Below, in pieces: positions 24,262 to 29,480 of a stretch of DNA of 64,000 bases. Within the stretch, counting starts at the first letter, position 1; every line of letters begins with the position of its first letter. Location of the stretch: NCBI GenBank assembly GCA_026162565.1, contig JAOEIQ010000008.1, positions 62,001 to 126,000 on the forward strand, given 5' to 3'. Made by a program: the position numbers and the translations under genes. The notes beneath the pieces are model-generated. The model was not told the DNA's origin, did not search any database, and saw only the letters and a program-made list of their open reading frames with translations. Source of the DNA: Flavobacteriaceae bacterium NBU2973. GTDB lineage: Bacteria > Bacteroidota > Bacteroidia > Flavobacteriales > Flavobacteriaceae.

Positions 24262-24291
24262 AAAAAGCGTAACAGTAGGTTACGCTTTTTT
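24262..24291. terminator. Bidirectional terminator between lipoprotein and crtY
   Basis: AAAAAGCGTAAC pairs with GTTACGCTTTTT over a five-base loop, with T on both strands. The crtY stop codon lies inside the stem. Confidence 0.85.
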
Positions 24292-25437
24292 ATTTTTAAA
24301 TGTTCGGAAAAATGCTCTTATAAAAGATTTGGAGAATAATGAAAGCATGATAGAAATATCTTGATATATATTGGATCTCTCGTCTAAAAAGGCAAACATA
24401 TTTTCTATAGAATTCTTATTATAAAACTTATCAAAAATCCATTCTCCTTTTTGGTTTTCCTTGTTTAAAACATCAAGAAATATTTTATCATAAAATAAAT
24501 ACTTTTTGTTTACTAATCCTTTTGATGGGCTTTCACTTTGCTTAATATTTTTTATAATTTGAGTCACTTTTCCCTCAGTATGCTTAAAAGCATAACCTGT
24601 AGATCCTTTTACCCAGCCACCAGCAGTTCCAATTTTTGTAATATTTTTAGAATGATAATTATGAAATGGAAAATCTGTCATAGGAATATTACCAGATTCT
24701 ATTTCAGAAATGGAGTAGTGGCTAATTCCTAAAACATCCTCAATATATTTTTTTAGAAAAGTATCATATTCAGTATCTCCAATTACGTATGGAGTAAAAA
24801 AAGTGAATTCTATTAATGCTTTACGCTTACTAAACGGTAAAACATAAGTAAAGGATGTATCATTTTCGTATTTTAAACGATAATCCATCATAGTAAAACA
24901 TTCTGGATTAAAAGCATCAAATTCTGTTTCAATAATCCAGCCCTTAAAATGTTGATTTATTTTAGTGTAATTGTCTTTTTTATCAAAATATTCAGCAGGT
25001 ATTCTACTATCAAATACATGATTTGCTGTGTATGTTGTATTTGTAGTTTTTATTGAAGTTGATTTATTATCCGCGACATCAATTACTTCATCAATAATAA
25101 AATTAAAGTTCTGTTTGTTTGATAGAAATTCTTTTATGTAATTATAAAAGTCAAGAGATTTAATAGTTTTATAGTTGTAATCACCAAGATTAATGTCAGT
25201 CAGTTTTTTTATAGTGTTGAACGAAGCTTTGTCCCAACTCTTATGAATTAAACTCTCCCATTTACCTGAACCCTTTTCCCAAAATGACCAAGTTTTATCG
25301 TTAGTTTCCTTTTTATCTTTATCAATTAAAGCAATAGTTTTAGAATCAAAAAAGGAATCATTAGCAAATGCAAAAGCTAATTGTAAACCAGCCATTCCGT
25401 TTCCTATAATAACATAGTCAAAATGGTTGTTATTCAT
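24280..25437 (-). CDS. crtY: Lycopene beta-cyclase
   Basis: Flavoprotein that closes both ends of lycopene to give beta-carotene. 385 residues, normal for CrtY. The dinucleotide-binding loop is IIGNGMAGLQLAFAF (residues 10-24); NDKTWSFWEKGSGKW near 46-60 is the CrtY-typical segment; FDSRIPAEYF and KGWIIETEFDAF near 140-175 are conserved; GTAGGWVKGSTGYAF near 275 is the C-terminal flavin-site motif. It is the last gene of the merR-crtI-crtB-crtZ-crtY operon, 15 bp after crtZ. With crtZ the expected product is zeaxanthin. Confidence 0.93.
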   Translation of the reverse strand: MNNNHFDYVIIGNGMAGLQLAFAFANDSFFDSKTIALIDKDKKETNDKTWSFWEKGSGKWESLIHKSWDKASFNTIKKLTDINLGDYNYKTIKSLDFYNYIKEFLSNKQNFNFIIDEVIDVADNKSTSIKTTNTTYTANHVFDSRIPAEYFDKKDNYTKINQHFKGWIIETEFDAFNPECFTMMDYRLKYENDTSFTYVLPFSKRKALIEFTFFTPYVIGDTEYDTFLKKYIEDVLGISHYSISEIESGNIPMTDFPFHNYHSKNITKIGTAGGWVKGSTGYAFKHTEGKVTQIIKNIKQSESPSKGLVNKKYLFYDKIFLDVLNKENQKGEWIFDKFYNKNSIENMFAFLDERSNIYQDISIMLSLFSKSFIRAFFRTFKNKKA

Positions 25438-25452
25438 TAAAGTATTGTTGTA

Positions 25453-25902
25453 TTATTTCTTGAAGTATTTAAAGGGTACTACAAGCATCCCAAAGTTTTC
25501 ACCTTTATGTTTCCCCAAATGCTTATGATGTATTTTGTGAGCACGTCTAACGCCTTTTGCATACCAATTATTAGCATTTCTAAATAACTTGAAGCGTTGA
25601 TGTATAAATATATCATGTACCATGAAATAGGCAAGTCCGTAAGCGAAAATTCCTAGACCAATGGGTAAACAAAACCAAATTTCATTGTAGCTCCATTGAT
25701 AAAAACAAAAAATACTTACTGCTGCATAAAATAAAAAGAATGCATCATTTCTTTCAAACCAGCTATCATGGTCTTTATGATGATGATCGCGATGTAAACT
25801 CCATAAAAAGCCATGCATGACATATTTATGAGTAAACCAAGCCATAAATTCCATTATAAAAAATGTACCAAGAAAAACCAGTATCCAAAAAGCTACTTGC
25901 AT
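25453..25902 (-). CDS. crtZ: Beta-carotene hydroxylase
   Basis: A 149-residue di-iron membrane hydroxylase of the fatty acid hydroxylase/sterol desaturase superfamily that adds 3-OH to the beta-ionone rings, giving zeaxanthin. The four histidine motifs are all visible: HKYVMH (25-30), HRDHHH (38-43), HDIFIH near 115-120 and HKIHHKH near 137-143. Three to four hydrophobic segments anchor it. It lies 8 bp after crtB and 15 bp before crtY in the same operon. Confidence 0.93.
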   Translation of the reverse strand: MQVAFWILVFLGTFFIMEFMAWFTHKYVMHGFLWSLHRDHHHKDHDSWFERNDAFFLFYAAVSIFCFYQWSYNEIWFCLPIGLGIFAYGLAYFMVHDIFIHQRFKLFRNANNWYAKGVRRAHKIHHKHLGKHKGENFGMLVVPFKYFKK

Positions 25903-25910
25903 TTGTAAAT

Positions 25911-26750
25911 TTATAATAAGTTTAGTTGGTATTTAACATAACTTCTAGTTAAGAGTTCAATTTTTTTGTAATTAGGAACCCTTATTCTAGTATTTTTTAT
26001 TTCTAAAGCTGGTGTTTTCTTAAGTTTTTTTAACAGTTGCCTGTAGTATCTGTAGGCCATGAAAACACCAAACTTAGCTTCGATAGGCAACTTTTTTATG
26101 CCTGATAATCCAATTATAAAGTCATTTTCAATATCATCTATAATTTCTTGTTTTGAAGTCTCATTTAAGTTATTGAGATCTGTGTTTGGAAAATAAGTAC
26201 GTTCCAAATCATCAAAATCAGCTTTTAAATCTCTTAAAAAATTTACTTTTTGAAAAGCAGAACCTAAAGACATAGCTGTAGATTTTAAGGCATCAAATTT
26301 TTCTTGATCACCTTTAACAAAAACCTTTAAACACATCAGACCAACTACATCTGCTGAGCCATATATATATTGTTTATACTCTTGAGGAGTTAAATATTTC
26401 TTTTTGTGTAAATCTAATCGCATACTATCCATAAAAGAATTAACATGCGCCCTATCCAAATTATATTTATGGTATGTATCTTGAAATGCATTAAGTATGG
26501 GATTCATACTTATTTTATTTGCTATTGCATATTCTAAATCGTTTTCAAAGTTTTTAAATAACTCTTCTTTATTGTAGTCATGAAAAGAATCTACAATTTC
26601 GTCTGCAAATCTCACAAAGCCATATATATTATAGATATCTTGTCTAATAGATGATGATAACATTTTTGTAGCTAACGAAAATGAAGTACTATAGGAATTA
26701 GTAACTAATTTAGAGCATTGATTGGAGACAGTATCAAAAATAGATTTCAT
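25911..26750 (-). CDS. crtB: Phytoene synthase
   Basis: Condenses two geranylgeranyl diphosphate molecules to 15-cis phytoene. 279 residues. Both Asp-rich motifs are present: VRFADEIVDSFHD (about 46-58) binds the first diphosphate, and NFLRDLKADFDDLERTYFP (about 170-188) binds the second. YIYGSADVVGLMCLKVF is also typical. It lies 8 bp downstream of crtI. The GGPP synthase (crtE) that supplies the substrate is not in the window. Confidence 0.94.
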   Translation of the reverse strand: MKSIFDTVSNQCSKLVTNSYSTSFSLATKMLSSSIRQDIYNIYGFVRFADEIVDSFHDYNKEELFKNFENDLEYAIANKISMNPILNAFQDTYHKYNLDRAHVNSFMDSMRLDLHKKKYLTPQEYKQYIYGSADVVGLMCLKVFVKGDQEKFDALKSTAMSLGSAFQKVNFLRDLKADFDDLERTYFPNTDLNNLNETSKQEIIDDIENDFIIGLSGIKKLPIEAKFGVFMAYRYYRQLLKKLKKTPALEIKNTRIRVPNYKKIELLTRSYVKYQLNLL

Positions 26751-26758
26751 GAGTAATT

Positions 26759-28252
26759 CTATGCGTTAATAGCAACAGTTGATTTTAGTGTTGCTAGTTG
26801 TTTATTAATTAGTTCTGCAACCAGTTTGCCTGATATTAGCGATGGTGGAACGCCAGGACCAGGAACTGTTAATTGTCCAGTAAAAAAGAGATTTTTTACT
26901 TTTTTACTTTTTAATTTTGGTCTTAAAAATGCTGTTTGAAGTAACGTATTAGCCATTCCATAAGCATTTCCTTTGTATGAGTTGTAATCTTTGATAAAGT
27001 CGTTTACGCAAAAACTCTCTTTAAATATAATACTTTTTTTCACCTCTTGAGATGTTAATTTCTCAAACCTATCTATAATTATATTAAAATATTTATCGCG
27101 AATAGCTTGGTTATCTTGCACTCCAGGAGCTAAAGGAATTAAAAAAATACCTGCTTCTTTATTATTTGGAGCAGTAGAACTATCTGTTATACTTGGAAAA
27201 CTTGCATAAAAGAGAGGTTCGTCTGGCCATTTAGGATTATCGTAAATGTCTTTAGCATGCTCATCAAAATCAACATCAAAAAATAGTGTATGATGATTTA
27301 CATTCTTCAGTTTTTTGTCAAAACCAACATAGAAAAGTAGTGAAGAAGGAGCAAAGGTTTTTTTATTCCAATATGATTCAGAATATTGCCTGTATTTAGA
27401 GTCTAAAAGTGTTTCAGAATGATGGTAATCTGCGCCACTTAAAACAATGTCTGAATTGTAAATTTGTCCATTAGAAATTATGCCAGTACTTTGTCCACTT
27501 TCAACAATAATTTTTTCAACAGGTGCATTTGTTTTTATAGTTACTCCAAGCTCCCTTGCAAGAGCTTCCATAGCTAATATTACTTTGTACATGCCTCCTT
27601 TCGGATGAAACGTTCCTATACCAAAATCAGCATAATTCATAAAGCTATAGAAGGAAGGTGTTTTACTTGGTTTAGCACCAAGAAATAAAACAGGGAATTC
27701 TAAAATTTGAGCAAGACGTTTATTTTTAAATTCTTTTCTGACGTCTCTTTTGATATTACTAAAAAACTGATTGATTTTGGTGGCAGTTTTTAAAGTCACT
27801 AATTCTAAAGGTGATACTCCAGGATTATAGACTAAATCTTTAATAGCAATATCGTAGTTGCTTTTTGCATTATCTATAAACTTCTTGAGTTTTTTAGAAC
27901 TTCCAGGCTCTTCTTTTTCGAACGCTACACAAATTTTCTCAAGAGTATCTTCTATGGTAATGTAATCATCCTTTCCAAAATAGACGATGTACGCTGGGTT
28001 TAATTTATCAAGTTGATAATAGTCTGAAGGTGTTTTACTGAAGTCAGCAAAAAAACGTTCAAAAACATCAGGCATCCAATACCATGTAGGTCCAATATCG
28101 AATGTGAAACCGTCTTTTTTTAGTTGTCTAGCTCTACCTCCAATTGTATCATTTTTTTCAAAAATTGTTACTTTATAACCTTGTTGCGCTAGGTAACATG
28201 ATGCAGCCAGAGATGAGAATCCAGAGCCTATTATATTTACAGATGCTTTCAC
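26759..28252 (-). CDS. crtI: Phytoene desaturase
   Basis: FAD-dependent four-step desaturase turning phytoene into lycopene. About 497 residues. The N-terminal Rossmann motif is NIIGSGFSSLAASCYLA followed by the FEKN...GGRARQ segment; GPTYWYMPDVFERFF-like sequence near residue 60 and the C-terminal GQLTVPGPGVPPSLISGK motif are diagnostic for bacterial CrtI. I choose the GTG at 28252, which begins one base after the merR stop and aligns with CrtI N-termini; a TTG at 28261 overlapping merR is the alternative. Confidence 0.94.
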   Translation of the reverse strand: MKASVNIIGSGFSSLAASCYLAQQGYKVTIFEKNDTIGGRARQLKKDGFTFDIGPTWYWMPDVFERFFADFSKTPSDYYQLDKLNPAYIVYFGKDDYITIEDTLEKICVAFEKEEPGSSKKLKKFIDNAKSNYDIAIKDLVYNPGVSPLELVTLKTATKINQFFSNIKRDVRKEFKNKRLAQILEFPVLFLGAKPSKTPSFYSFMNYADFGIGTFHPKGGMYKVILAMEALARELGVTIKTNAPVEKIIVESGQSTGIISNGQIYNSDIVLSGADYHHSETLLDSKYRQYSESYWNKKTFAPSSLLFYVGFDKKLKNVNHHTLFFDVDFDEHAKDIYDNPKWPDEPLFYASFPSITDSSTAPNNKEAGIFLIPLAPGVQDNQAIRDKYFNIIIDRFEKLTSQEVKKSIIFKESFCVNDFIKDYNSYKGNAYGMANTLLQTAFLRPKLKSKKVKNLFFTGQLTVPGPGVPPSLISGKLVAELINKQLATLKSTVAINA

Positions 28253-28253
28253 T

Positions 28254-29180
28254 CTAACCAACTTGCTGAAGATAATTGTCTAGTCCGTCTAATACTTCTT
28301 TAGTAGAATTAAATACAGAAATTTTATTGTCTAATCTAGATAGATCTATATGATGAGTTTGTCTACCAGAAACTAGAAATAAATTGTCATTTTCTTTTAA
28401 AACTTTATTAGCTAAATCATCTAAATAATCATTTATAATTTCCTTATCAGGTTTTATAGTAAACGATGAGATAAATACTATTTCATCGTAATGCTCTGTT
28501 AAATATTCAAGACTATTAATTGGAACACTTTGACCTAAATAAATACTCTTGTAGCCTCTTAAGATTAGCTCGTAATTAACGAATAATAATCCTAATTCAT
28601 GAATTTCATTGTCAGGTAAAAAGAGTACAAATGTTTTACTTTTCTCATTTTGTACGGCCTCATCTACAGCTTTATCGGCATAAATTAATATTTTCTGCTT
28701 TATCAGCTCAAAAATGAAATGTTCGTGCGCAGGAGTGATAGTATCTGTTTGCCATAATAAACCTATTTGGTTTAATAATGGCACAAAAACATTATGAAAT
28801 ATGTAAGAAAGATCATTATCTTGGGATGCTTCTCTAAAGGTTTTGTAAAATAGACTTTGGTCAAAATTAAGCATTGCCAATTTAAATAAATCTACATAAT
28901 GATTATCTGGATCATCTACTTTAGCTATTTCTCTTACTAAATTTGGAATGTCATTAGACCTTAATTGAGCTATTTTGGATACTTTATATCCATTTTTATT
29001 TAGGTAAGCAATATTTAAAAGCTTTTGTAAACTTGCTAAACTGTAATATCTAATATTGGTCTCTGTTCTATTGGGCTGAAAAAGATTATAACGCTTTTCC
29101 CAAATTCTTATGGTGTGAGCCTTGATGCCAGATAGATTTTCAAGGTCTTTAATACTGAAGCGAGTTTTAATATTGTTCAT
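28254..29180 (-). CDS. MerR-family regulator with cobalamin-binding domain (CarH/LitR type)
   Basis: A 308-residue repressor candidate at the head of the carotenoid operon. Residues 7-75 are a MerR winged helix (FSIKDLENLSGIKAHTIRIW). The middle is a four-helix bundle with W143 and E153-H154, exactly the W-x9-EH motif that caps adenosylcobalamin in CarH. The C-terminal Rossmann-like domain carries E192-x-H194-x-x-G197, a variant of the DxHxxG motif whose His is the lower cobalt ligand. In known CarH proteins, light breaks the Co-C bond and releases the repressor from DNA. The residue after W143 is Gln rather than the His of Thermus CarH. An inverted repeat lies just before its ATG. Confidence 0.85.
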   Translation of the reverse strand: MNNIKTRFSIKDLENLSGIKAHTIRIWEKRYNLFQPNRTETNIRYYSLASLQKLLNIAYLNKNGYKVSKIAQLRSNDIPNLVREIAKVDDPDNHYVDLFKLAMLNFDQSLFYKTFREASQDNDLSYIFHNVFVPLLNQIGLLWQTDTITPAHEHFIFELIKQKILIYADKAVDEAVQNEKSKTFVLFLPDNEIHELGLLFVNYELILRGYKSIYLGQSVPINSLEYLTEHYDEIVFISSFTIKPDKEIINDYLDDLANKVLKENDNLFLVSGRQTHHIDLSRLDNKISVFNSTKEVLDGLDNYLQQVG

Positions 29181-29203
29181 TGTTTAGCTAAAATAGTTAA
29201 ACA
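29181..29203. promoter_or_regulatory. Putative MerR/CarH operator
   Basis: TGTTTAGCTA-AAA-TAGTTAAACA is a 10-bp inverted repeat with one mismatch. It abuts the merR ATG and overlaps the -7 element on its far side, as expected for a repressor site. Confidence 0.55.
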
Positions 29204-29209
29204 AATTTA
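29202..29209 (-). promoter_or_regulatory. -7 element of the merR-crt operon
   Basis: The minus strand reads TAAATTTG, matching TAnnTTTG. Its last two bases overlap the end of the inverted repeat. No -33 TTG at standard spacing. Confidence 0.5.
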
Positions 29210-29269
29210 ATTTAAAAAATATAATGTATTAAGACTTTAACGAATATTTATAATAAAGTTAAATTGAAG

Positions 29270-29353
29270 TGCGCACGAGAAGACTCGAACTTCCACGAAC
29301 TAATGTCCACTAACCCCTCAAGCTAGCGCGTCTACCAATTCCGCCACGTGCGC
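29270..29353 (-). tRNA. tRNA-Leu (GAG)
   Basis: Read on the minus strand, a 7-bp GCGCACG/CGTGCGC acceptor stem, D-arm, anticodon stem CTAGC/GTTAG around loop TTGAGGG (anticodon GAG), a long variable arm as in class II tRNAs, and T-arm with GTTCGAGTC. The discriminator is A; CCA is not encoded. It reads CUU/CUC codons. Confidence 0.95.
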
Positions 29354-29407
29354 ATTTTAGATTTGTGTAAAAATAAGAAAAGTTAAGCTCTTGCTTAACT
29401 TTTCTAG

Positions 29408-29480
29408 TGACTTGGCTGGGGCTCGAACCCAGGACCCTCTCCTTAAAAGGGAGATGCTCTACCAACTGAGCTACCAAGTC
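29408..29480 (-). tRNA. tRNA-Lys (TTT)
   Basis: Read on the minus strand, acceptor GACTTGG/CCAAGTC, D-arm AGCTCAGTTGGTAGAGC, anticodon stem TCTCC/GGAGA around loop CTTTTAA (anticodon TTT), T-arm with GGTTCGAGCCC. The discriminator is A and CCA is not encoded. It lies 54 bp upstream of tRNA-Leu; the two are probably one transcript. Confidence 0.97.

Follow-up and report, generated by a model that had tools for sequence, protein, structure and literature searches.

The window, by which we mean the whole 64,000-nucleotide stretch of DNA analysed here, contains a carotenoid operon on its reverse strand. The gene for a CarH-like regulator is followed, in order, by crtI, crtB, a crtZ-like gene, and a lycopene cyclase gene, and the regulator ORF (28254-29180) shares 8 bp with the crtI ORF (26759-28261). 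Genes for tRNA-Leu(gag) and tRNA-Lys(ttt) lie immediately upstream of the regulator gene on the same strand (29269-29480). The features discussed below are as follows.

28254..29180, minus strand: CarH-like MerR/B12 regulator of 308 amino acids (from the ORF, Pfam, motifs, and structural model), with a helix-turn-helix (HTH) at about residues 8-75, a helical cap at about 99-164, and a Rossmann B12 domain at about 180-300
26759..28261, minus strand: crtI, phytoene desaturase (NCBIfam CrtID, 731 bits against a cut-off of 640)
25911..26750, minus strand: crtB, phytoene synthase (SQS_PSY, 3.4e-47)
25453..25902, minus strand: ORF that we take to be a crtZ-like carotene hydroxylase from its position, without a Pfam or NCBIfam match
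24280..25437, minus strand: lycopene cyclase, crtY-like (Lycopene_cycl, 2e-44)
29202..29209, minus strand: TAAATTTG, a flavobacterial -7-type box by its sequence
29173..29204, minus strand: predicted operator, the inverted repeat TTGTTTAA-N16-ATGAACAA (exact match; conserved in the family)
29197..29204, minus strand: upstream operator arm TTGTTTAA, overlapping the -7 box
29173..29180, minus strand: downstream operator arm ATGAACAA, made up of the start codon, codon 2, and part of codon 3
29181..29203: 23-bp palindrome TGTTTA-N11-TAAACA of an earlier, sequence-only reading of this DNA, with an inner right half limited to near relatives

NCBIfam CrtID describes a bifunctional phytoene desaturase/3,4-desaturase. 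Because crtI passes its cut-off, the carotenoid end product may be something other than plain zeaxanthin.

A CarH-like regulator and its cobalamin motifs

The regulator has the CarH architecture, in which a MerR-type HTH is joined to a helical cap and a Rossmann B12 domain. Pfam matches it to MerR_1 (4.7e-15) and to B12-binding_2, the helical cap (1.1e-8). An AlphaFold (AF2) model built from 55 sequences reached a pLDDT of 90.5, and its top Foldseek match was TtCarH (5c8e, E 1.6e-14), with a TM-score of 0.53 and an rmsd of 11.5 over the whole chain and about 20% identity in the alignment. For the B12 part, VIA-align gave a Z of 20.6 with CarH and photocobilin chains at an rmsd of 2.4-2.7 over 201-206 residues (Chloracidobacterium chain, Z 20.4; Saccharothrix chain, 20.6; Acidimicrobiaceae chain, 18.4). 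Against the NCBIfam CarH equivalog NF052513, the regulator scored 74 bits, short of the cut-off of 400.

Relatives were compared in two sets: 120 loci that include the window copy, and a set from named genomes comprising the best 80 of 588 matches (Winogradskyella, Flavobacterium, Algibacter, Maribacter, Zobellia, and others). The sets overlap, with 193 of 200 loci distinct, and are not summed. Alignment A1 joined the window protein to 26 members of the 120-locus set, and A2 joined it to 54 of the 80 named loci; the start at one locus (L139) was shifted by 9 bases by hand. A scan of genome contigs with the single protein as query returned no relatives; an alignment query found them. Two apparent 801-aa regulators (L016 and L072) are not taken as fusions, since each has a stop codon inside the matched stretch. 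MliR of Bizionia, which the excerpted source says lacks an effector domain (PMC9478572), was rejected as an orthologue. A bias of Ser9 toward AGY codons (146/146) was not counted as DNA signal, because no single step converts AGY into TCN or the reverse. Flavobacterial-type regulator copies also occur in two metagenome-assembled records titled Bifidobacterium breve and Rhizobium (L142 and L175), which are probably mislabelled or mis-binned.

The sequence-only reading had assigned the MerR protein before crtI two motifs for binding adenosylcobalamin (AdoCbl), W143-x9-E153-H154 and E192-x-H194-x-x-G197, and both lie at exactly these residues. The ligands are nearly invariant. In the 120-locus set (window copy included), W143, E153, E192, and H194 are each kept in 120 and H154 in 117, and all five are kept in 80/80 of the best 80 of 588 matches; W143, E153, and H154 together, the Wx9EH motif, are found in 117/120 and 80/80 loci, respectively. 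The ExHx2G-x41-SxV/T part of the B12 motif is likewise present, as E192, H194, and G197 followed after 41 residues by S239-F-T241. The end of that motif, GG after 22-27 residues, is replaced by S271-G272 after 29 residues, and three of the four SignatureFinder elements (GxxW, EH, GxxH, and GxxxP) are present, with N191-x-x-H194 in place of GxxH. It had also been noted that Gln follows W143 where TtCarH has His. This is true of the window protein, but it is the family norm (97/120 loci and 79/80 of the best 80 of 588) and no peculiarity; His occupies position 144 in 3/120 loci and in 1/80 of those best 80. Gln144 thus stands in place of His132, the upper-axial residue of the bis-His lit state of TtCarH. 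Light-active AdoCbl domains without this His have been described, with Arg, Gln, and Tyr in CtMerR, SasPcob, and AbDPcob (PMC11796333, excerpt), and as for the TtCarH H132A variant, one study found that it stays for the most part a tetramer when lit, and an earlier one saw it dissociate (PMC10442372, excerpt).

A source of AdoCbl is apparent in most of these genomes. The window's own genome, 3.05 Mb in size and 99.97% complete, encodes a single PduO adenosyltransferase (3e-60) and also carries mutase genes; no second B12-cap protein was found in it, and thus no MetH-type enzyme was seen. We called a protein an orthologue at E of at most 1e-50, the division into orthologue, distant, and weak classes being our own cuts. 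PduO is present in 215/220 orthologue genomes versus 40/58 genomes without an orthologue or with a weak match, a comparison confounded by genome completeness and size. In the five orthologue genomes without PduO (G008, G048, G062, G064, and G279), we looked for CobA and found none. Three of these (G008, G048, and G062) have mutases, and no adenosyltransferase was found. The other two, G064 (99% complete) and G279 (96%), belong to one genus and keep the regulator, and neither PduO, CobA, nor a mutase was found in them; AdoCbl would therefore be imported there, or the protein works otherwise. The regulator copy from this genus (L088) retains the B12 ligands.

The repeat at the regulator's own promoter

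The 23-bp palindrome at 29181-29203 had been read as the operator. The sequence TGTTTAGCTAAAATAGTTAAACA is exact at this position, once in the window and in 0 of 100 shuffles, and a slightly degenerate form of it is found at this one place in the genome. Its value as a palindrome is low: among 1,000 shuffles of the 120-bp upstream stretch, 116 contained a repeat with 10-bp arms at least as good. Its left half, which overlaps the promoter, is kept in most of the family, but its right half (TAAACA abutting the ATG) is exact in only 8/120 loci (window copy included) and 0/80 of the best 80 of 588 matches, and it is a longer repeat that is conserved.

That longer repeat was visible in 84 anchored upstream regions, which share the block GTAnnTTTGTTTAAC; the TTTGTTTAA within it stops exactly 16 bp short of the start codon. 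These 84 sequences were picked for the motif (at most 3 mismatches), and the conservation of TTTGTTTAA among them is partly selection. In the same set, the TA ahead of TTTG is present as T in 81/84 and as A in 78/84. TTTGTTTAA is kept in place with at most one mismatch in 71/80 of the best 80 of 588 matches and in 78/120 loci, and the left arm lies 16 bp ahead of the start in 157/200 loci (those best 80 included). In 133 of the 157 fixed-spacing loci, the right arm is ATGAACAA, with the start codon taken in. Among the other 43 loci, offsets 16 and 17 each have a TTAAACAA-like arm (at most 2 mismatches) in 17 loci, whereas any other offset between 5 and 79 has 0-6 such arms.

Because the right arm includes the start codon as ATGAACAA, codon 2 is nearly always AAC. 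This codon is present in 154/155 fixed-spacing loci, the remaining one having no Asn codon there, and distinct fixed-spacing loci carry 147 AAC and 1 GAC of 148 (kinship uncorrected). At codon 2 of other ORFs, AAC makes up 19/58 Asn codons (kinship uncorrected); over the regulator genes it makes up 37% of Asn codons, and codon 3 behaves normally. In three loci of the named set (L174, L184, and L205), the start codon has shifted 3 bp upstream, but the arm is still in its old position and reads ATAAACAA or GTAAACAA. From these alignments, the conserved operator is predicted to be TTGTTTAA-N16-TTAAACAA, with a right arm that mostly absorbs the start codon.

Scanning upstream regions with a half-site weight matrix revealed nothing clear beyond the anchor. 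Matches to TAnnTTTGTTTAAC in the window's own genome were rejected as targets, with four hits (two within ORFs, one some 15 bp ahead of a rhodanese-type gene, and the crt site) versus three in the reversed control. The sequence before the rhodanese-type gene, TAATTTTGTTTAAC at L128:1487-1514, is a single half-site only.

Sites across genomes, their predicted target genes, and the probable reader

Operator searches that tolerated mismatches did not rise above control (window's own genome, 2 mismatches, 55/52 versus 70/65; window, 3 mismatches, 23 versus a control mean of 34), and only the strict pattern was used afterward. This pattern, WTGTTTAA-N16-TTAAACAW, has 757 sites in 228/299 family genomes; the reversed pattern has 20. 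Its W end letters were chosen after one-mismatch sites in the window's own genome had been seen, so that the four strict-form sites in that genome besides the crt site (control 0) are not an independent test and the other 298 genomes are. Site and regulator tend to occur together: sites are present in 214/220 genomes with an orthologue versus 7/58 without one or with a weak match (Fisher 4e-41, kinship uncorrected), and four of those seven are assemblies at most 81% complete. Among distant-group genomes, 7/21 have sites.

Control of the crt operon only, as first envisaged, seems too narrow, since the repeat also stands before photolyase/cryptochrome/folE, fasciclin, and GLPGLI genes genome-wide. 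In the window's own genome, one site precedes a GLPGLI gene, one precedes a fasciclin gene (and also touches the start of an ORF on the opposite side), and two fall in a 14-kb cluster:

L262:1411-15709 (contig C3): gene cluster that includes four photolyase/cryptochrome-type genes, folE, TspO, glutathione peroxidase, SDR, and SnoaL-like genes

The first cluster site precedes a run of TetR, ABC1 kinase, flavin reductase, DUF2867, DASH cryptochrome, photolyase-related, and cryptochrome/photolyase genes, and the second a run of orf103, DUF2805, folE, SDR, glutathione peroxidase, TspO, and photolyase genes. The uncharacterised orf103 adjoins the DUF2805 gene. GLPGLI and fasciclin genes with the operator were seen in several genomes (L263 and L215; L264).

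We then read the targets at 88 distinct sites in 78 loci (the window's own genome, 22 listed genomes, and 8 further loci) out of the 757, with the cluster as the source of the queries, except that those for fasciclin and GLPGLI came from genes next to some sites. Recurring genes follow 78/88 sites within 900 bp (38% for random places in the same loci) and 67/88 within 160 bp (9% for random places), and only 2/88 site centres fall inside an ORF of at least 150 aa (80% for random places). The predicted targets are fasciclin genes (18), the TetR run (17), orf103/DUF2805/folE (16), crtI (11), GLPGLI genes (7), and other cluster genes (9); the 10 sites without a recurring target include some beside desaturase, GHMP-kinase-type, and HSP90 genes. 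Of the 88 sites, 84 could be oriented, and 27 of these have an ORF on both sides. At the oriented sites, a TAnnTTTG box begins at -5 from the site start in 12, at +16 in 25, and at +36 in 14, thus overlapping the left arm, abutting the right arm, or starting 4 bp past the site. A promoter box at these three registers on or near the site fits a repressor. Pigment, photolyases, the pterin gene folE, and peroxidase make up a set that a light response would need.

A pattern of co-variation points to the protein that reads the site. In most of a distant regulator group (L106-L125), RKWE[TS]RY replaces RIWEKRY as the recognition helix, and the regulator's own promoter has TTAGACA as its half-site. 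K29 is paired with TTAAACA or ATGAACA, and T/S29 with TTAGACA, in 108 of the 110 loci that have one of these residues. The full tally covers 113/120 loci (six are weak, and L105 has too little upstream DNA) and consists of 94 with K29 and AAACA/GAACA, 14 with T/S29 and GACA, 3 with R29 and the first form, and 2 exceptions (L081 and L113); this co-variation is largely one clade split. Within the distant group (G261 left out), canonical sites were found in 4/4 genomes with RIWE[KQR]RY versus 3/16 with RKWE[TS]RY (Fisher 0.007), the four informative genomes representing two genera and one of them (L125) having only a 2-mismatch operator. Because the half-site follows the MerR recognition helix, the MerR protein, and not the TetR-type protein of the cluster, is the likely reader. 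Distant-group regulators have Gly, Thr, or Ser at position 144, and 12/20 of their loci have no crtI.

Known systems, the proposed mechanism, and its alternatives

The initial identification of a CarH/LitR-type B12 regulator with an operator over the crt promoter is borne out by the fold, the near-invariant ligands, and the adenosyltransferase, but three strict CarH features fail. Like TtCarH, a class I LitR, the protein has a MerR HTH, cap, and Rossmann B12 domain with Wx9EH and ExHxxG, crt neighbours, and an operator over a promoter, and its half-site fits the T-nn-ACA core of the CarH repeat nAnnTnnACAn (PMC8156234, excerpt). Unlike TtCarH, it has Gln for His132, NxxH for GxxH, and no literal GG, and its predicted operator is one long inverted repeat with N16 spacing instead of 11-bp direct repeats. 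Given the deviant GG end, GxxH, and upper-axial position, the missed CarH cut-off, and the inverted operator, we class the protein, on these comparisons, as a CarH-like variant. In lacking an upper-axial His in the B12 domain, it resembles Chloracidobacterium CtMerR and the photocobilins SasPcob and AbDPcob (PMC11796333, excerpt); the photocobilins add biliverdin, and the comparison covered the B12 domain.

Regulons of similar content are known. Class II LitR of Pseudomonas (PplR/PmlR) also targets photolyase, cryptochrome, folE, and SDR genes from an operator over the promoter, but, as far as the excerpted source goes, it is without the Rossmann half, works with LOV proteins, and has the site TGTACA-N12-TGTACA (PMC9758184). 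Myxococcus CarA is likewise a MerR repressor of carotenogenesis with a B12 domain, but it is described in the excerpted source as lacking Wx9EH, B12 independent, and relieved by CarS (PMC8156234). The regulator studied here has both the Rossmann half, missing from class II LitR, and Wx9EH, missing from CarA, and so belongs to neither type. Photolyase, SDR, folE2, and fasciclin targets also occur in the regulon with which Rhodobacter RpoE answers singlet oxygen, but that one is run by a sigma factor and ChrR (PMC7074977, excerpt). Our search for flavobacterial or Bacteroidota CarH/LitR, with subscription papers mostly outside it, found no study of this regulator or operator.

We consider it likely that the protein acts as an AdoCbl photoreceptor of CarH-like (class I LitR) type and represses a photoprotection regulon through TTGTTTAA-N16-TTAAACAA. 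The fold, the motifs, the conserved operator, its recurrence before photoprotection genes, and the co-variation of helix and operator are computational observations; AdoCbl binding, repression, light release, and the photoproduct we infer by analogy with CarH. In the dark, AdoCbl, with H194 below and W143, E153, and H154 above, would keep the protein in its DNA-binding form. This form would grip the repeat on the -7 box and block its own carH-crt operon, and would impose the same block at the photolyase/cryptochrome/folE/SDR/glutathione-peroxidase/TspO cluster, the fasciclin gene, and the GLPGLI gene. Light would break the Co-C bond, release the DNA, and induce the photoprotection set. With Gln instead of His in the upper-axial position, that residue could not give the lit protein the bis-His state of Thermus.

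Several other explanations would account for part of these data. Repression of the same regulon without cobalamin, in the manner of CarA, or as the effector of another photoreceptor, in the manner of class II LitR with short LOV proteins, would explain why His132 is replaced and why G064 and G279 keep the regulator with no PduO, CobA, or mutase found, and such relatives exist (PMC8156234 and PMC9758184, excerpts). We regard this as unlikely, because those relatives are without Wx9EH or the Rossmann half in the same excerpts, and the ligands here are nearly invariant and accompanied by PduO in nearly all orthologue genomes. That the main cue is something other than light, such as the AdoCbl level or the redox/oxygen state, seems quite improbable. 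A singlet-oxygen response would hold the same regulon (PMC7074977, excerpt), and the photoswitch residue differs, but all loci seen keep W143 and E153, which contact adenosyl in CarH. Furthermore, photolyases need light to act, which makes light the natural cue.

The alternatives that concern the DNA site can be judged in the same way. Counting against the photoreceptor reading, the regulon includes a TetR gene whose product (TetR_C_23) could bind the same site, the CarH-like gene being then merely a target; 17/88 sites precede this gene, many about 60 bp from its matched part. However, the half-site and the distant-group site count both follow the MerR helix, the sites track the regulator across genomes, and Pfam finds no N-terminal TetR DNA-binding domain in the protein at E 0.001, which together make ownership by TetR highly improbable. 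It is also very doubtful that this species uses the 23-bp palindrome as its working operator. The window and several near relatives have it in exact form, and its length is near that of the class II LitR sites (PMC9758184, excerpt), but set against this are the poor conservation of its right half given above and the closest relative (L006), which keeps the 16-bp-spaced pair, ending CTAAACAA.

Returning to the AdoCbl photoreceptor-repressor, we give an even chance to a more specific form of it: a B12-photoreceptor regulon shared by the Flavobacteriaceae, whose photoreceptor would rely on a conserved Gln in place of the Thermus His and on another light-triggered movement, would read a long inverted repeat rather than direct repeats, and would have its first residues (Met-Asn-Asn) dictated by the operator in its own start codon; fasciclin and GLPGLI genes would join the photolyase and carotenoid genes already known. 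Among the yellow heterotrophs of sunlit water, the Flavobacteriaceae are a major group, and there is little description of how they sense light to control pigment and DNA repair; for a Chryseobacterium, the excerpted source reports light-induced carotenoids and no car or lit operon (PMC7064467). One regulator and one operator are here predicted together in 214/220 orthologue genomes, with targets read at 88 sites, and the code that links helix to operator is testable by simple DNA binding. The family also offers, in large number, natural B12-photoreceptor-like proteins that have no upper-axial His, and these are relevant to the question of how photolysis leads to DNA release.
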